Below, one piece after another: positions 9,923 through 19,084 of a stretch of DNA of 32,241 nt. The notes under the pieces are model-generated. The model did no database searches and had not been told where the DNA came from. It saw only the letters and a list, made by a program, of their open reading frames with translations. Location of the stretch: positions 1 through 32,241 of the forward strand of contig JACCXM010000464.1 in assembly GCA_013697005.1 (NCBI GenBank). The letters are read 5' to 3'. The translations under genes were made by a program, and so were the position numbers. The number at the start of each line of letters is the position of its first letter. Within the stretch, counting starts at the first letter, position 1. The stretch comes from Chloroflexia bacterium (GTDB lineage: Bacteria > Chloroflexota > Chloroflexia > Thermomicrobiales > UBA6265).

Positions 9923-9953
9923 CGACCCGATCACCCCATGACCCCATCACCCT
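9921..9953. repeat. Octamer repeats, single orientation
   Basis: Just after the dehydrogenase stop the sequence reads CCCGATCA CCCCATGA CCCCATCA CCC, the same 8-base units that build the inverted arms at 2130-2218 and 18124-18252. Here only one arm is present, so no long hairpin forms. Confidence 0.6.
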
Positions 9954-10154
9954 TGTCGTCGCCAGCCTGACTCGTCCGGCGCGGTCGCGCGCCACTTCGC
10001 GGGGAGTCATGGACTAGCCGCGCTGGTCAGACCAGACGGCTATCTGGGATACCGTGGATGTCCCAACCAGCCGGGAACGTTGGTCTCCTACCTGGCGCGC
10101 GTGTTTGCCATGCAGATGCGGGGCGTGGTCGAGCATGATGACGGGAATCGCTGA
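9942..10154 (+). pseudogene. Relic of a flavin-dependent monooxygenase, C-terminal tail
   Basis: An open frame ending in TGA at 10152 encodes 'GLAALVRPDGYLGYRG' followed by 'LVSYLARVFAMQMRG'. The phrase LVRPDGYxxYRG plus a final helix of the form YLxRVF is the standard C-terminal end of aromatic-ring FAD monooxygenases, which are normally about 500 residues. Only about 70 codons are open, bounded upstream by an in-frame TGA within octamer repeats, and no suitable start is seen. I read it as the stub of a deleted gene; the octamer array marks the break point. The ORF track does not list this frame. Confidence 0.6.
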
Positions 10155-12286: not shown

Positions 12287-13273
12287 ATGATTCCTCGTTT
12301 CATCACCTTCGCCACGGTCATTCTCTTGCTCTGCGGGGTTGTCATCGCCGCCCCGGAGCGCGAACCGGTGCGGGCCCAGGATGACGATTACGAATGGCCG
12401 GAGATTGGCACCATTCAGATTCCGGGATCGATCCAGGTTCCCGGCACCATCGAGACCGCCGGCACCGTGGCCAATGTGCGGGGGGCGATCAGCATCGTCG
12501 CGGGTGGCGAGGGGCAGAGCACACTGGCAACCGACGTCGGGGTCGATCTGATACTCGACAACTCTGGCAGCATGCTCCAGTCGCTCGGCAGCGAGCGGCG
12601 TATCGACGTAGCCAAGCAGGTGCTCACCGAGTTGGTGCAGGACACCTTGCCGCAAGGAATTCCGCTCGCCCTGCGTGTCTTCGGGAACGAACCCGATTCG
12701 TGCGAGACCGGCCTCGCCATCCAAACGGGTCCGCTCGACCGGGGATCCGCCGTGCAGCAGATCGCCGCGATCGATTCCATCGACGGGGTGAAAACCCCGC
12801 TTGGCGCCGCGCTGGACCAGGTTGCCGCCGATCTCAGCGCCATCGAGGGCCCGAAAATCGTCGTTCTGGTCACGGACGGCGAGGAGACCTGTGGCGGCAA
12901 TCCACAACGCTCCATTCGCCAACTGGTCAACCAGGGAATCGACGTGCGGGTCAACATCGTTGGCTTTGCCGTCGCCGACGACAATCTCAAGGAGCAATTC
13001 GCGGAGTGGGCACGTATCGGCGGCGGCCAATACTTTGATGCCACGGGAGCCGACGACCTGGGCGAAGCCATCGCGGCGGCGCTGCAGCCACCGTTCGCGG
13101 TACTGGATGCCAATGGCGACGTCGTCGGCATGGGTGTCGTCGGCGGGCAAGCGGTGCGGGTGGAACCCGGCGCCTACATGGTGGAAGTCCTTTCCGACCC
13201 GGAAGTGGTGTACGAGGTGGTCGAGGTCGGCAATGGCGAGGAGGTCGTACTCTCGCTCGCCGACGCCGGCTGA
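12287..13273 (+). CDS. Secreted von Willebrand factor A (VWA) domain protein
   Basis: A 328-residue exported protein. The ORF track begins 33 bases earlier at 12254, but the ATG at 12287 follows AGGAGGAG and opens directly into the signal peptide MIPRFITFATVILLLCGVVIAA. The VWA domain begins near residue 85 with 'VGVDLILDNSGSMLQ', the MIDAS metal site (DxSxS), continues with the Thr in 'VKTPLGAALDQV', and the Asp in 'VVLVTDGEETCGG'. So all MIDAS elements are present. A short beta-sandwich-like C-terminal domain follows ('VVGGQAVRVEPGAYMVEV'). Cysteines at 'SCETG' and 'TCGG' could form a disulfide. It probably binds a protein or surface partner outside the cell. Its 3' end overlaps the convergent EcfA gene by 100 bases. 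Confidence 0.88.
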   Translation: MIPRFITFATVILLLCGVVIAAPEREPVRAQDDDYEWPEIGTIQIPGSIQVPGTIETAGTVANVRGAISIVAGGEGQSTLATDVGVDLILDNSGSMLQSLGSERRIDVAKQVLTELVQDTLPQGIPLALRVFGNEPDSCETGLAIQTGPLDRGSAVQQIAAIDSIDGVKTPLGAALDQVAADLSAIEGPKIVVLVTDGEETCGGNPQRSIRQLVNQGIDVRVNIVGFAVADDNLKEQFAEWARIGGGQYFDATGADDLGEAIAAALQPPFAVLDANGDVVGMGVVGGQAVRVEPGAYMVEVLSDPEVVYEVVEVGNGEEVVLSLADAG

Positions 13274-14931
13274 CCACGCGCCATACCGAGTCCGCTCAAA
13301 ACGTCGCCCGGCGTGAGAAACCCGTCGCCGTAAAGCGTGTTGATGGCGGTGGCGAAGGTCAGCGACCCGGAGAGGACCGTGCGCGGACCGCCATCGCCGA
13401 TGATGCGGCCATCGCCGAGGAGAACGACGCGGGACGCAATCTCGGCCACCAACTCCACGTCGTGAGTGGCGAGCACGATCGCCACCCCGTCGCTACGCAG
13501 CCGGGTCAGAATCGTCGCCAGCTCCCGCTTGCGGGCGGCGTCCATCCCGCGGGTCGGTTCGTCGAGGAGGAGAACCCGTGGATTGCCGACCAACACCGCG
13601 GCCAGCGCCGCGCGCTCCCGCTCGCCGCCGCTGAGGTCGCGTGGGTTGCGTCCCGCGGCGTGGCCGAGCCCGAGCGCGGTCAGCGTCTCCTCGGGATCGA
13701 GTCCGGGGCTGCGGTGGTGTTTCCGGGTGAACGCCAGCTCGGCTTCCAGCGTTTCGGCGAAGAAGAGAGCGGAAGGGTTCTGCGGGAGGTAGCCAACCGT
13801 CTGCGCGATCTCGGCGGGATGCAGGTGTGCGGCATCCTGACCGGCGATCAGGACGCGTCCCGTGGCTGGCCGGTGCAAGCCGGCGATCGCGCGCAGCAGG
13901 GTAGTCTTGCCGGAACCGTTCCGCCCCATCAGCGCCACCAACTCGCTCTCACGGATTTCGAGGTCGATCTCGCGCAAAACCCGCCGGTCGTCCCAGCCGG
14001 CGCTCACCTGGCGAAGGACGACGACCGGGTCACCTCCCGCGGGAGAGGGGTCCGGTGGCGGGGCATCGGGCACGCGCCCCGCCGCGCTGTCGCGGCGCTG
14101 GGCGGCACGTCCCTCTTTGATCGAAAGTGGCAGCGGTTCCCACCCCAGGCGTCGCCCGAGTGCGAGCAGCGCGGGCAGATTCCCGACATCGACATGCGGC
14201 AATACATCGCGTGGTGCACCGGCAAACGCCACGGTTCCTCCCGTGGCGAGCACCGTGAGCCGATCGCTTTGGGAAACGACGCGCGCCAGGCGGTGCTCGG
14301 CGAGCACGATCGTCAATCCGAGATCCTCGTTGAGCCGGGTCAGCGCCGCGATCACCTCCTCCGCGCCCCAGGGATCGAGCTGGCTGGTCGGCTCGTCGAG
14401 GGCCAGGATCGCCGGCTGCAAGGCGAGCGCGGCGGCCACCGCCACCCGTTGCCGCTCGCCACCTGACAGGGTCGCGATCTCCCGGTCCCGTAAGGCAGCG
14501 ATACCGAGCAGATCGAGCACCTCTTCCACGCGCTTCCGCATCGTTAGTGGTGGTACGCCGAGCTGCTCCATCCCGAACGCCAGCTCGTCGTCGACACGGC
14601 CCGTGACGAACTGCGCTTCCGGATCCTGAAAGACGAAGCCGGTTGTGCGTGCCAGCACGCGCGGGTGGTACCGCCGCGTGTCATGGCCGGCGACGGTAAC
14701 CATTCCGTCAAATGTGCCACCGCTGAAATGCGGAGTCAGTCCGTTCAGGCAGCGCAACAACGTCGATTTGCCGCTTCCGGAAGGACCGGTGACGGTGACG
14801 AACTCGCCTGGCGCCACGAGCCAATCGAGCCTATCGAGTGCCGGAACGTCACGCTCCGGATAGCAATACGTCAACCCGGAAAACTCAATGACCGGAGCGT
14901 CACGCGAGGCGAGCGGAAGACGCTCGTTCAT
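13174..14931 (-). CDS. ecfA: Energy-coupling factor transporter ATPase, two ABC domains fused (EcfA-EcfA')
   Basis: A 585-residue protein holding both ATPase subunits of an ECF vitamin importer in one chain. Domain 1: Walker A GPSGSGKST near residue 50, Q-loop 'FVFQDPEAQFVTG', signature LSGGERQRVAVA, Walker B 'ILALDEPTSQLD'. Domain 2: Walker A GRNGSGKTT near residue 335, 'GYLPQNPSALFF', signature LSGGERERAALA, Walker B 'VLLLDEPTRGMD'. The 'QNP/QDPE' Q-loops are typical of cobalt/vitamin EcfA proteins. The ATG forms an ATGA overlap with the EcfT-fusion gene upstream. The last 35 or so residues (Ser/Thr-rich, ending TSTM) are encoded antisense to the VWA gene and look like read-through past an ancestral stop. 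It energises the transporter encoded by the two upstream genes. Confidence 0.94.
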   Translation of the reverse strand: MNERLPLASRDAPVIEFSGLTYCYPERDVPALDRLDWLVAPGEFVTVTGPSGSGKSTLLRCLNGLTPHFSGGTFDGMVTVAGHDTRRYHPRVLARTTGFVFQDPEAQFVTGRVDDELAFGMEQLGVPPLTMRKRVEEVLDLLGIAALRDREIATLSGGERQRVAVAAALALQPAILALDEPTSQLDPWGAEEVIAALTRLNEDLGLTIVLAEHRLARVVSQSDRLTVLATGGTVAFAGAPRDVLPHVDVGNLPALLALGRRLGWEPLPLSIKEGRAAQRRDSAAGRVPDAPPPDPSPAGGDPVVVLRQVSAGWDDRRVLREIDLEIRESELVALMGRNGSGKTTLLRAIAGLHRPATGRVLIAGQDAAHLHPAEIAQTVGYLPQNPSALFFAETLEAELAFTRKHHRSPGLDPEETLTALGLGHAAGRNPRDLSGGERERAALAAVLVGNPRVLLLDEPTRGMDAARKRELATILTRLRSDGVAIVLATHDVELVAEIASRVVLLGDGRIIGDGGPRTVLSGSLTFATAINTLYGDGFLTPGDVLSGLGMARGQPASASESTTSSPLPTSTTSYTTSGSERTSTM

Positions 14932-16679
14932 GGCCGCACCGCCGCCGGGGCCAGCAGCAGGCCGAATGCTGCGAGCAGCGGCAGTGCGATCGCCGGGGCG
15001 GTGAGCGTCGGGTATGGCTCATAGCGGAAGGCGGCGGGATCGAGCGCCAGAATCACGATTTCGACGGTGAGCACGGCGATCGCGGCGCCGCTGACGATCC
15101 ATTCCGGCCGCTCCCACAGGGGATCGCGGTAGCGGGTGCGGCGGAGCGCTCTTCCCCCCCTGCTCCGCAGCCCCGCCGCGAAGGTCAAAACCGCCAGCGC
15201 CAGCAGCGCCGCCGAGGCCGCCATCTGACCGAGCGCGAGACAGAAGGCTCCCGTCAGCGCCGCGATCAGACCTACCAGCAGCGAGACGACCTGCCATGGC
15301 CGCGGGATCAGCTCGGGGGCGAGCGGCGCGCCGAAGGCGCGCGCCTCGAGTGCCTCGGCGGTGATCATGGATCGTTCCAGACCCCCAGCCAGGAGCGGCA
15401 TCACCAGCGGAGCGACGTCACGAATGCCACGCGGCCGGTAGCCACGCGCCATCTGCGCTTCCCGGATTTCGGAGAAGGCGACGACCGTGCGCGGCAGATA
15501 GGACCAGGCAATCGATCCGGCCACCGCCAACGGCGCCATCCGCTCGGGGAGGAGCCGCATCATCGCGCTCCAATCGAGCGTTGCGCCAAGCGTGGCGCTG
15601 ACCGCGACGAGGGCGAAAATTGCCATCGCGCTCAGCAGACCGTAGATCAGCGCGTTGAACGTTAGCGGACCGCCCACGATCGGCCAGGACTCCGGCATAG
15701 TGCCGACGATGATGTCGCCGACATGAACCGTGAGCAGATTGAACAGCACGCTCACCGCGCCAAAGACGAGCGCCAGCCGCAACAACGGCCGCCAGCGCGC
15801 CCCCGCGGCCCCTCTGCTCCCTGCCGCCCAGACACCGAGCACCGCGAGCAGCGTGGCCGCAAGCACCCAGGGGTTGCGCCCGAGCAGCAGCGGTAAACTG
15901 GCGGCGATCGCCCAAATCAGCCAGGCCCGCGGATCGAGCGGCCGCGCGCGCATCAATCCCCCCTCTCCCGGCTCGACGGGAGAGGGGGGTAGGGGGGTGA
16001 GGGTCAGCCGCAACAGCACAGAACACCCAATGACCACCAGAATGACAATCGCCACTGCCGTCGTACCCATGTCCGGCGCGGGCGGAGCCGCAAACGCGGC
16101 GACCCCGTCCGGCAGGAAGATGCGCACGCTTGGCGCGTTTCCCTCGCCATCGCTGGCGCCGGCCAGACTCGCGATCTCGGCCACGGGGAGCGCTGGCAAT
16201 TCCGGTTCGTCCGCCGTCCAGCTCCACCCAAAGACGTCGCCGTCCTGGACGTCGGTGGTGCTGGCGCCGAGCGGCTGCCAGGTCCAGATGGCGGGATTGG
16301 CAGCGTCTTGCTGAAAATACTGCCAGTAGGGGGCGTCGGCAGCGGAAGCCTGGCACACGGTGCGCCGGCATTGGCTCACGCCGCAACCCTGCCCGCCGAT
16401 CGCGCAGACTCCCTCGCCGAGTGCACCGAACCCGACGGTAACGACCGGGATACCGCTCCGCTTCAACAGCGCGATGCCGTCGATCTCCTCTTCCGCAAAC
16501 GGCACCCAGGCATACGTGACGCGCCCTTCGGCATCGCGCACGACGAGCCCGGCGTGATTGAGGTGGTCATCCGCCAGGACCGTTCGCGGCGCGAGGAGCA
16601 GACCCAGCAGCAACGCCGCCAGGGAAAGCAGCAGCCAGAGGCGGATGATGTGCCAGGGCATCGCCAACCGCGAGGTCAC
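14928..16679 (-). CDS. ecfT: DUF4430-like extracytoplasmic domain fused to EcfT membrane subunit
   Basis: About 583 residues from the chosen GTG at 16679, which forms a GTGA overlap with the upstream gene; ATG at 16661 is the alternative, and the track's start at 16883 lies inside that gene. Order: signal segment 'IIRLWLLLSLAALLLGLLLAPRTVLA'; an outside domain with 'NHAGLVVRDAEGRVTYAWVPFAEEEIDGIALLKRSG', cysteines in 'CAIGGQGCGVSQCRRTVC', aromatic 'APYWQYFQ' and 'DGDVFGWSW', matching the DUF4430 (transcobalamin beta-domain) plan; a membrane helix 'AVAIVILVVIGCSVLLRL'; then EcfT with coupling motifs 'AQMARGYRPRG' and 'ALEARAFGA'. It links ligand capture outside with energy coupling inside. Between the helix and EcfT, 'PLPPSPVEPGEGGL' is encoded by a REP-like palindrome. 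The cobalamin riboswitch upstream suggests a corrinoid ligand. Confidence 0.88.
   Translation of the reverse strand: MTSRLAMPWHIIRLWLLLSLAALLLGLLLAPRTVLADDHLNHAGLVVRDAEGRVTYAWVPFAEEEIDGIALLKRSGIPVVTVGFGALGEGVCAIGGQGCGVSQCRRTVCQASAADAPYWQYFQQDAANPAIWTWQPLGASTTDVQDGDVFGWSWTADEPELPALPVAEIASLAGASDGEGNAPSVRIFLPDGVAAFAAPPAPDMGTTAVAIVILVVIGCSVLLRLTLTPLPPSPVEPGEGGLMRARPLDPRAWLIWAIAASLPLLLGRNPWVLAATLLAVLGVWAAGSRGAAGARWRPLLRLALVFGAVSVLFNLLTVHVGDIIVGTMPESWPIVGGPLTFNALIYGLLSAMAIFALVAVSATLGATLDWSAMMRLLPERMAPLAVAGSIAWSYLPRTVVAFSEIREAQMARGYRPRGIRDVAPLVMPLLAGGLERSMITAEALEARAFGAPLAPELIPRPWQVVSLLVGLIAALTGAFCLALGQMAASAALLALAVLTFAAGLRSRGGRALRRTRYRDPLWERPEWIVSGAAIAVLTVEIVILALDPAAFRYEPYPTLTAPAIALPLLAAFGLLLAPAAVRP
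15956..16008. repeat. REP-like palindrome inside a coding region
   Basis: CCCCCCTCTCCC, loop GGCTCGAC, GGGAGAGGGGGG, then GGGGGGTGAGGG. Same block order as the element at 4557-4622. Here it falls in frame inside the DUF4430-EcfT gene and is translated as 'LTPLPPSPVEPGEGGL', a linker between the membrane anchor and the EcfT domain. Confidence 0.7.
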
Positions 16680-17866
16680 GCCGCGCGCGCGAGCGGAAGA
16701 CATCCTGCAGGAAGCGTGTCGTCGCCCGCCGCGCACCCCGTGGCCACGGGGAGAGGCAGACCGGCCATCGCCGGAATCGCTTGCAGGGTCGCCAGCAGAT
16801 TCGGCTCCTCGTCGCTCACCAGGTAGCGCAACCCGCCATCGGGCGTCTGGAACCGCGCCAAAGCGAGCGGCGCGTTGCCCCATTCGCGTGCCGCGGGATT
16901 CTCGCCAGCGGCAATCAGTGCCTGCGCGACGAGCGCGGTCGAGTTGGCATCGGCGACGAGGGGATCGCTGGGTCCATAGGCGAATCCACTTCCGTCCGGA
17001 GCGGACAGCGACGCCAGGAACGCCAGGCCACGCTCGACCATCGGGTCATCGCCGTGACCGCTCGCGGCCAGCGCCTGGACAACGAGCGCGGTCGTGTTCG
17101 AGTCCGCGCTACCGGGCGCGGTCGAGCCGTCGAACGCCCACCCACCATCCGGCCCCTGGCTGGCGCGCAATGGATCGATCGCGGTCTCGGGAATCGTCTC
17201 GCCCGCGGCAACCAGGGCAATGAGCACCAGCGCGTGGTCGTAGAGATCGTCGCCATAGATACCGGCGACCCCGTCCGGAACCGGGGTGGCCAGCGGCGCG
17301 GTCATCGCCGCGACGAGATCGAGACCGCCGAAATCGCGTGGATCGCGCCCACCGGTGACTGCCGCCAGGGCGAGTTTCGCCGCCTGCCCGGGCCCGGTCT
17401 GAGCATAGGGCGCCCCGTTCTGCTCCAGATACGCGATCGCCGCAGCGAGCGATGCGGCCGCGGCAGGATCGCTCTCCTGAGCGGCGAAGAGCGCCATCGC
17501 GGCGTCGGTCGTCACCCCCGGATCGAGCACGCCATCGAATCCAGGGAACCCCCCGCCGGGATCCTGCTGTGCCCGCAACCAGCGCGACGCCGCCTCGATC
17601 GGCGACATCGCGGTGCTCTCCGAAACTGCTTCGGGTGTCGCCTCCTGCGCAAGCGCGGGTGCCGGAATGAACGGACCAACGTGAAGCGCCACGATGAGAC
17701 TGACGATGAAAATGAGCGGAGCACGGGGGGGATCGGCTGTAGGGGCGACGCCCGCGTCGCCCGCCTTACCCCACGGCGATGCGACGGAGTTCCAGAACCC
17801 GGTCCCCAGCCTTGAAGTTGAGAGATCGGCTATCGACGTGAGCTCGGCCCGCGGCGCGCGCGGCAT
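16676..17866 (-). CDS. Secreted alpha/alpha-barrel repeat protein (prenyltransferase/transcobalamin-alpha-like)
   Basis: First gene of the riboswitch operon, 396 residues from ATG 17866, which follows AAAGGA at 7 bases. The track's start at 17950 lies inside the riboswitch and is rejected. After a long N-terminal stretch comes a signal-like helix 'LIFIVSLIVALHVGPFIPAPALAQEATPEA'. The body repeats helix pairs: 'AASRWLRAQQDPGGGFPGFDGVLDPGVTTDAAMALFAAQ', 'QGPDGGWAFDGSTAPGSADSNTTALVVQALAA', and 'SGFAYGPSDPLVADANSTALVAQALIAAGE', the pattern of squalene-cyclase/prenyltransferase barrels and of the alpha domain of intrinsic factor and transcobalamin. The cyclase DxDD acid motif is not seen, so a binding role fits better than catalysis. 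Its stop overlaps the next start (GTGA). Probable extracytoplasmic corrinoid binder, by context. Confidence 0.82.
   Translation of the reverse strand: MPRAPRAELTSIADLSTSRLGTGFWNSVASPWGKAGDAGVAPTADPPRAPLIFIVSLIVALHVGPFIPAPALAQEATPEAVSESTAMSPIEAASRWLRAQQDPGGGFPGFDGVLDPGVTTDAAMALFAAQESDPAAAASLAAAIAYLEQNGAPYAQTGPGQAAKLALAAVTGGRDPRDFGGLDLVAAMTAPLATPVPDGVAGIYGDDLYDHALVLIALVAAGETIPETAIDPLRASQGPDGGWAFDGSTAPGSADSNTTALVVQALAASGHGDDPMVERGLAFLASLSAPDGSGFAYGPSDPLVADANSTALVAQALIAAGENPAAREWGNAPLALARFQTPDGGLRYLVSDEEPNLLATLQAIPAMAGLPLPVATGCAAGDDTLPAGCLPLARAA
17743..17762. repeat. Palindrome GGGCGACGC-CC-GCGTCGCCC in the N-terminal coding part
   Basis: Two perfect 9-base arms separated by two bases, inside a GTAGGGGCGACGC context that resembles a dispersed element of Chloroflexota-type genomes (from memory). 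It lies between the ribosome site and the signal helix of the barrel protein and encodes part of an otherwise odd N-terminal extension (GDAGVAPTADPP). Confidence 0.5.
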
Positions 17867-17899
17867 CGGCTGTCCTTTCCCTTTCGCGCGAAGGGCGTC

Positions 17900-18080
17900 G
17901 GACGCGGTCGGCTGGGTGATCTGACTTCGCCGCCGGAGTGTTTCCGGCAAGCGTCACAGTTGCGGGACAGTGCCGGTTTTGCACCGGCTTCCCCCAGATC
18001 AGCCCAACGGCGCATCGCGCCCTGGGCTTTCTCTCCGCATGAACGCTCTTGAATTTTCAGCGCCAGTAGCGACACCGGCG
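17900..18080 (-). promoter_or_regulatory. Cobalamin (B12) riboswitch
   Basis: Reading the minus strand, the core contains GGGAAGCCGGTGCAAAACCG, then GGCACTGTCCCGCAACTGTG, the conserved B12-box region, and the 3' part CGAAGTCAGATCACCCAGCC. A 5' GGTG segment and AAAATTCAAGAG joining region precede it. Together these are the diagnostic parts of the cobalamin aptamer in the right order, ending about 35 bases before the ATG of the barrel protein. It should lower expression of the three-gene ECF operon when adenosylcobalamin or a related corrinoid is plentiful, probably by hiding the ribosome site, as no terminator T-run is seen. Exact ends are approximate. Confidence 0.9.
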
Positions 18081-18123: not shown

Positions 18124-18252
18124 AGGTGATAGGGTGGTAGGGTGATAGGGTGACGGAGATGGGACACGGGATGAGAACTCGGCAACCGTCGGCGATTCGT
18201 TCCCATGACCCCAGCACCCTATGACCCTATCACCCCATGACCCGATCACCCT
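18124..18252. repeat. Octamer-repeat inverted arms upstream of and into the TauE gene
   Basis: The left arm (about 18124-18155) has GGTGATAG, GGTGGTAG, GGTGATAG, GGTGACGG. The right arm (about 18202-18252) has six units such as CCCATGAC, CCTATCAC, CCCATGAC, CCGATCAC. The arms can pair, and the right arm runs across the start codon of the TauE/SafE gene. Same family as 2130-2218 and 9921-9953. Confidence 0.75.
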
Positions 18253-19084
18253 CATCGCGATTGGCGTGGTGGCCGCGGTGGCCGCCATCCTCGGGTCGAT
18301 GCTCGGGTTGGGTGGCGGGGTGTTTCTCGTTCCGATCCTCACCCTCTTCTTTGGCATCGATCCCAAATTCGCCGTCGGCGCCAGCGCGGTGGTCGTCGTC
18401 ACCAACTCGGTGGTCGGCTCGACTAACCACCTGCGCATCCGCTTCACCAATCCCCGCTTGGCGATGCTGCTCCAGATCGCCACCGCCGCGGGAGCGATCG
18501 CCGGCGCGCTCTATGGTGTCGTCGCCGATCCGCGGGTCATCTATGGTGTCTTCGGCGGGGTATTGATCTATGCCGCCGTCTCGATGGTGATCCGCCGCGA
18601 GCGGAGTGTTTCCGCACCGCCGATCGACACCCCCGATCCCCTGCGCCTGGGCGCCGCCTTCCGCGATCCCGCCATTGGCTCGGATGTCGGATACATTCCG
18701 GGCAACGCCGGCTGGGGAATGGGCGTCGGCGTCGGCGCGGGTGTCATCTCGGGCATGCTGGGGGTCGGGGGCGGGGTGGTGATGGTGCCGGCGATGAACC
18801 TGCTGATGCGGGTACCGGTGAAAGCCGCGGTGGGCACCTCGACCTTCATGGTCGGCATCACCTCGGTGGCGACTGCCTTCGTCTTCTATTCGCAAGGCTT
18901 CATCGATCCAACGCTAGTCGTACCGGCCATCGTCGGGGTCTTCCTCGGGGGCCAGATCGGATCGCGCCTCACCCGCCGCATCCGGGCGCAGCGGCTATCG
19001 CTGCTCTTCTCGCTGATCCTGCTCTACCTGGGTGTCTCGCTGCTGTTCCGGGCCTTGGAGATTCCGGCGCCGTGGCAAGCATGA
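18221..19084 (+). CDS. TauE/SafE family sulfite/organosulfur exporter-like permease
   Basis: A 287-residue inner-membrane protein with about eight helices in two homologous halves. Each half has the family's glycine-rich loop: 'ILGSMLGLGGGVFLVPILTLFFGI' near residue 23 and 'GVISGMLGVGGGVVMVPAMNLLMRVPVKAAVGTS' near residue 180. The family moves small anions such as sulfite, sulfoacetate or related compounds, usually outward. The start at ATG 18221 lies inside octamer repeats and the first eleven residues (MTLSPHDPITL) are repeat-encoded; no ribosome site is visible, so the repeat seems to have supplied the start. Its stop overlaps the next start (ATGA). Followed by DUF1634, its usual partner, and an MTA/SAH nucleosidase-like gene, which suggests sulfur metabolism. 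Confidence 0.92.
   Translation: MTLSPHDPITLIAIGVVAAVAAILGSMLGLGGGVFLVPILTLFFGIDPKFAVGASAVVVVTNSVVGSTNHLRIRFTNPRLAMLLQIATAAGAIAGALYGVVADPRVIYGVFGGVLIYAAVSMVIRRERSVSAPPIDTPDPLRLGAAFRDPAIGSDVGYIPGNAGWGMGVGVGAGVISGMLGVGGGVVMVPAMNLLMRVPVKAAVGTSTFMVGITSVATAFVFYSQGFIDPTLVVPAIVGVFLGGQIGSRLTRRIRAQRLSLLFSLILLYLGVSLLFRALEIPAPWQA

Follow-up and report, generated by a model that had tools for sequence, protein, structure and literature searches.

Gene content and organization of the operon

The window, by which we mean the whole 32,241-nucleotide stretch analyzed (contig JACCXM010000464.1 of assembly GCA_013697005.1, from a Chloroflexia bacterium of the order Thermomicrobiales), carries on its minus strand an operon built around the core of an ECF importer. 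Read in the direction of transcription, it begins with the aptamer of a cobalamin riboswitch (17918..18023) and a hairpin that includes the ribosome-binding site (17869..17905). These are followed by the gene for a secreted α/α-toroid protein (16676..17866), by a single open reading frame (GTG start at 16679, end at 14928) that combines an extracellular small β domain (16185..16574), a hydrophobic segment (15999..16055) and an EcfT transmembrane subunit of the CbiQ family (14928..15953), and by a gene for an EcfA-EcfA double ATPase (13174..14931). The toroid and the small domain are thereby encoded by separate genes. The hydrophobic segment (hydropathy 2.71) is the predicted membrane anchor of the small domain, and an unstranded copy of a dispersed palindromic repeat (15957..16006; core, 15961-15986) lies at the junction of the small domain and EcfT.

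The initial annotation, made from the sequence alone, had placed a cobalamin riboswitch at the head of the operon and described a secreted α/α-barrel protein, a double EcfA and genes joined by 4-base overlaps, all of which were borne out. The aptamer matches RF00174 with 36.2 bits (gathering threshold, 31.5) in a cmscan search, the barrel is recovered by structure prediction (see below), and the overlaps are read directly as GTGA (16676-16679) and ATGA (14928-14931). The ATPase matches TIGR04520 with 340 bits (cut-off, 315) and contains two ABC_tran stretches, and EcfT lies well above the Pfam CbiQ (PF02361) cut-off (45.9 versus 25 bits; E, 6.8e-12). Elsewhere in the window there are clusters of 8-base repeats, e.g., GGGTGATA/TATCACCC, at 2133-2223, 9924-9958 and 18125-18257; they are partly mutually inverted, and the last lies just upstream of the cobalamin riboswitch.

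The riboswitch and its leader

The aptamer contains the B12 core GGGGAAGCCGGTGCAAAACCGGCACTGTCCCGCAA, a motif that is conserved across 20 aligned relatives. Because the core hardly varies, RNAalifold scores little covariation over the whole aptamer, and two-sided changes are confined to one variable stem. The aptamer is followed by a hairpin of the form GTCC...CCCTTCGCGCGAAAGGG-AA-GGAC, which holds the ribosome-binding site and recurs directly before the start codon in relatives. In the minimum free energy fold of the leader, GUCC pairs with GGAC, and the fold of this single sequence is little more stable than those of shuffled sequences (z, -1.64). We regard the hairpin as the probable expression platform, through which the operon would be placed under translational control.

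A survey of the co-occurrence of the riboswitch and the domains, proposed as a check along with the initial annotation, found a B12 riboswitch or its core motif upstream in 37 of the 38 named relatives with upstream sequence. The B12 riboswitch is matched by Rfam in 22 of these loci, and the core motif was found in 15 more by a search that allowed 3 substitutions and had no null model. The one locus lacking the core motif, L064, was searched by motif and not by Rfam. Two further loci (L060 and L071) have no upstream sequence and lie outside this count.

The toroid protein

The toroid gene ends with a stop codon at 16676 and likely starts at ATG 17866, after GGAAAGGA. Its first approximately 48 residues (window 17723-17866) resemble an inserted dispersed sequence, with residues 19-46 matching G000:C420:3983-4066 at 64%, and the true start codon is uncertain. 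A hydrophobic segment at residues 49-67, followed by ALAQ-EA, is read as a secretion signal. In sequence searches, the protein is related to the NCBIfam family SCO2321_fam (NF053823; 2.8e-26, 92.4 bits), far below the curated cut-off of 300. Long C-terminal repeats were seen by eye on the toroids of several Thermomicrobium loci, and two toroids apparently occur in one chain in L074:3389-5722 and L068:3487-6381.

Comparison of the AF2 model (pLDDT 91.8) with transcobalamin structures, another of the checks proposed, gave a mixed outcome. The toroid does adopt the α/α barrel seen in transcobalamin and intrinsic factor, and a Foldseek search of the PDB retrieves transcobalamin (3e-5 to 7e-5), but squalene-hopene cyclases rank above it (8e-9). 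The fold is also common to cyclases, prenyltransferases and glycosidases.

The small domain and its relationship to DUF4430

The small domain has conserved cysteines and a WSWT end, and the order of strands and helices predicted in its AF2 model (pLDDT 90.2) fits the expected fold. The initial annotation had called it DUF4430-like. As a direct family assignment this does not hold, since Pfam DUF4430 (PF14478) gives no match at E < 1 with the window domain, and searches with the Pfam and NCBIfam models detect DUF4430 neither in it nor in 26 relatives. The domain instead matches NCBIfam SCO2322_fam (NF040672) with 1.8e-5 and 25.1 bits, below the cut-off of 85, as do 24 of 27 aligned members. As a statement of remote homology, however, the designation survives profile-profile comparison. 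Aligned with DUF4430 by hhalign, the small domain scores 30.1 (E about 1e-4; probability, 50-57%), against a best score of 20.0 among 200 column shuffles and of about 10 for the reversed profile.

Other structural and profile searches were less telling. A profile search of the PDB with the small domain returned nothing credible. Foldseek returned nothing below E 0.15 for the model, with weak β-grasp matches only and no transcobalamin among the 50 matches listed, so that the structural comparison proposed for this domain did not tie it to transcobalamin. With cyclases above transcobalamin for the toroid and transcobalamin missing for the small domain, structural resemblance alone is insufficient for the claim. 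A further link comes from G117, a relative from the same phylum, where a DUF4430 lipoprotein occupies the slot of the small domain. The profile of this same-slot DUF4430, searched against the PDB, retrieves haptocorrin as its top match (E, 0.0069), with transcobalamin-2 in third place (E, 0.37). On the basis of the profile score, the DUF4430 protein in the G117 slot and its retrieval of haptocorrin, the small domain appears at the profile level to be a remote homologue of DUF4430 and of the transcobalamin-like SLBB domain.

The two modules can also be found in one polypeptide, as toroid plus small domain in L068 and L072 and as toroid plus DUF4430 in L094-L096. The idea that the bacterium follows the two-domain logic of the animal B12 carriers, split over two proteins, is strengthened by these one-chain fusions in five relatives and by the chain of remote homology from the small domain through DUF4430 to haptocorrin. 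The toroid and the small domain are each probably related to one half of the animal carriers. In plasmid searches, we recovered no toroid and two weak DUF4430 matches, one of which (L098) is without toroid or ECF annotation. A second small-domain protein, with a PEP-CTERM end, was observed in Anaerolineae operons (L066:4246-4827 and L069:5032-5598).

Conservation of the operon in relatives

Searches with the toroid found matches in 46 of 61 relatives. A scan of genome contigs for the small domain yielded 40 named loci, mostly from Thermomicrobiales and other Chloroflexota; the taxa include Thermomicrobium, Thermalbibacter, Sphaerobacter, Chloroflexus, Oscillochloris, Chloroploca, Anaerolineae, Dehalococcoidia and Ardenticatenales, along with single contigs labeled Gemmatimonadales and Gracilibacteria, which could reflect misbinning. 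At 29 loci, the genes for the toroid, small domain, EcfT and EcfA share a strand, and at 28 of these they also keep the same order. Thermomicrobiales carry the operon across the whole order, and it recurs in other Chloroflexota. In the Chloroflexus loci L062 and L065, genes that by eye resemble phosphoglycerate mutase and CobS lie between the small domain and EcfT.

The small domain-EcfT fusion is a local event

The initial annotation had further described the capture domain as fused to EcfT and built into the transporter itself. The fusion is real insofar as one reading frame is open across both parts. Its junction, however, falls on the dispersed repeat. In the same-genus relative L004, the stop codon of the small domain overlaps the EcfT start (TGATG), whereas in the window the counterpart of that stop is occupied by about 50 bases built on the palindrome CCCTCTCCCG..CGGGAGAGGG, and the separate stop is gone. 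The palindrome CCCTCTCCCG(7)GGGAGAGGG occurs in about 143 copies in the 4-Mb genome, against 0 for a backwards control. An SLBB/EcfT fusion occurs in none of the 34 named related loci in which EcfT can be seen, and in other loci the small domain forms a protein of its own. The fusion is therefore a local event traced to the insertion of a repeat and not a matter of design, and we reject the notion of a designed receptor-transporter. EcfT retains its own ATG at 15953 and can also be reached by read-through from the small domain. The fused chain may be functional; its topology would be workable, because the hydrophobic segment would bring the chain inside before EcfT. The palindrome at 15961-15986 resembles a REP family and appears able to fuse genes. 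EcfT and EcfA share one open frame in L047 and L060.

The S-component

The operon of the window has no gene for an S-component. The host genome codes for one on another contig (G000 C448:4225-5034), which matches PF12822 with 42.6 bits (cut-off, 30.7) and lies directly upstream of nrdJ, the gene for a B12-dependent ribonucleotide reductase; no cobalamin riboswitch was found before it. Given that this is the only PF12822 S-component in the host and that the EcfT of the window is its only CbiQ/EcfT, the two most likely pair.

Relatives provide the physical linkage. In G117, the toroid, DUF4430 lipoprotein, EcfT and EcfAA are accompanied by a 260-residue S-component (PF12822). Counting this one, 11 loci (L035, L060, L066, L069-L072, L074-L076 and L081) carry a homologue of the host S gene within the operon or immediately beyond it, from which it follows that the complete importer consists of the toroid, the small domain, S, EcfT and EcfAA. 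Among S-components linked to the operon, the matches are to ECF_trnsprt or ECF-ribofla_trS and not to CbiM; no NCBIfam model matched the family. Of 61 genomes, 42 have both the toroid and S, 10 have neither and 9 have one of the two (Fisher 2e-5, without correction for kinship or genome incompleteness). In the host and most Thermomicrobiales, S is unlinked from the operon, and its neighbors vary. Among other S neighborhoods, in some Thermomicrobium-type genomes (L102, L104, L106 and L115) S follows a BtuF-like Peripla_BP_2 protein that begins with MRIVSLLPS and has no obvious signal peptide, and in L035 a cobinamide kinase gene of the CobU family (L035:594-1211) adjoins S downstream of the operon.

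B12 physiology of the host

CbiC is required by both corrin pathways. It is absent from the host genome, a draft of 479 contigs that is 98% complete, so that single gene absences are not proof, and it exceeds the cut-off in only 1 of 61 genomes (G038), which itself has neither toroid nor S. The host match to FecCD is below the cut-off, and there is no convincing BtuC; an adenosyltransferase is present. A second B12 riboswitch of the host (L037, G000:C307; 91.7 bits) precedes the class I ribonucleotide reductase genes nrdA-nrdB, an arrangement that has been reported in Streptomyces (PMC4991794). The host thus seems unable to make corrin; it would import it instead and, in the presence of B12, repress its B12-independent reductase. 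The corrinoid uptake envisaged from the outset is supported by this combination of adenosyltransferase, B12-dependent reductase and missing CbiC, as well as by the riboswitch in nearly all relatives.

A proposed transcobalamin-like capture device for an ECF importer

Taken together, these observations point to the window as the site of the main operon for an ECF importer of corrinoids (vitamin B12), equipped with an extracellular, transcobalamin-like device for capture, a reading that we consider likely and in which the nature of the ligand is itself deduced from context. When cellular B12 is low, the riboswitch would let the operon be translated, and B12 would presumably switch it off. Outside the membrane, the secreted toroid and the membrane-anchored small domain could clasp a corrinoid between them, much as transcobalamin does, each providing a probable half of the capture site. 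They might then hand it to the S-component encoded next to nrdJ, and EcfT with the EcfA pair would drive S to release the corrinoid inside.

Alternatively, the system might import cobalt (Co2+) in the manner of CbiMNQO under a B12 riboswitch, with the toroid and small domain as accessory surface proteins. The Pfam family matched by EcfT is indeed named for cobalt transport, and cobalamin riboswitches are known to control cobalt transporters too (PMC3766115). We consider this improbable, in view of the affinities of the linked S-components, which are to families other than CbiM, and the position of S beside a B12-dependent reductase; further, with CbiC missing, there would be no corrin pathway for imported cobalt to supply. 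A system without any S-component, in which the extracytoplasmic modules replace S and one is built into EcfT, was implied by the initial annotation and would suit the composition of the window operon, the open fused frame and its feasible topology. It is rejected as very improbable on the strength of the 11 loci in which S accompanies the operon, the single S and single EcfT of the host, and a fusion that is unique and seated on a dispersed repeat. Least credible of all is the interpretation of the toroid as a terpene-cyclase-like enzyme whose product its neighbors import: squalene-hopene cyclases are its best matches in both sequence and fold, but the DxDD motif is found in 0 of 27 toroids, and the secretion signal and regulation by B12 also speak against such a role.

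A subtler departure would keep corrinoid import and dispense with the joint B12 site, e.g., with one module binding B12 while the other serves as a cell-wall anchor or acts upon corrinoids once they are bound. The generic nature of the toroid fold, the C-terminal repeats of several Thermomicrobium toroids and the lack of transcobalamin among the structural matches listed for the small domain are all compatible with it. We nevertheless judge it rather unlikely, as the toroid is fused to the small domain or DUF4430 in five relatives, the two modules almost always sit side by side, and the small domain is distantly related to DUF4430, itself a match to the transcobalamin β domain.

Relationship to known B12 uptake systems

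In 2007, Burroughs et al. proposed that bacterial transcobalamin-like SLBB proteins beside CbiO/CbiQ, often fused to α/α toroids, act as B12 scavengers (PMC1796856), which makes the operon of the window a variant of a predicted system. The section of that study on B12 scavenging shares with our case the surface toroid and SLBB modules, the CbiO-like ATPase, the CbiQ-like membrane protein and hosts mostly short of B12 synthesis genes. It stresses fused toroid-SLBB proteins, whereas in our case each module has its own gene, and Pfam misses the cysteine-rich small domain. Our analysis adds the S-component, which that section does not name, and the riboswitch, a word nowhere mentioned in the paper. 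The open-access literature searched contains no experiments on this predicted system.

The animal proteins transcobalamin, haptocorrin and intrinsic factor likewise combine an α/α barrel with a small β domain, but they are single polypeptides taken up by endocytosis, whereas here two polypeptides are coupled to an importer of a putative corrinoid ligand. ECF-CbrT, the cobalamin/cobinamide importer of Lactobacillus delbrueckii, is similarly an ECF system with its S gene near nrdJ; there the S-component itself binds, and the parts of the report that describe it mention no toroid or SLBB module (PMC5997447). The Streptomyces counterparts are the SCO2321 and SCO2322 families, to which the toroid and small domain correspond, and the literature searched holds nothing relevant on SCO2321-SCO2324. 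Judged against the open-access literature, the apparently new elements are the split form as a rule in Thermomicrobiales, its control by a riboswitch, a divergent small domain rich in cysteines, the S-component and the repeat-borne fusion.

Implications

In ECF importers, it is the membrane S-component that is taken to bind the substrate directly. Tentatively, we propose that a two-part transcobalamin-type receptor loading S would constitute a further kind of Chloroflexota B12 importer beside BtuFCD and ECF-CbrT, that the animal B12 carriers may descend from such an ECF-coupled receptor, and that in the present genome a repeat insertion welded its small domain to EcfT. Thus, both the use of extracellular binding proteins by ECF transporters and the origin of the animal B12 carriers from the receptor of a bacterial importer become testable. 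For the B12 uptake predicted in 2007, the toroid, small domain, S-component, EcfT, EcfAA and riboswitch provide a concrete parts list, complete and widely conserved, which includes thermophiles whose proteins may suit structural work. The importer would also explain how bacteria seemingly unable to make B12 could supply their B12-dependent ribonucleotide reductase.
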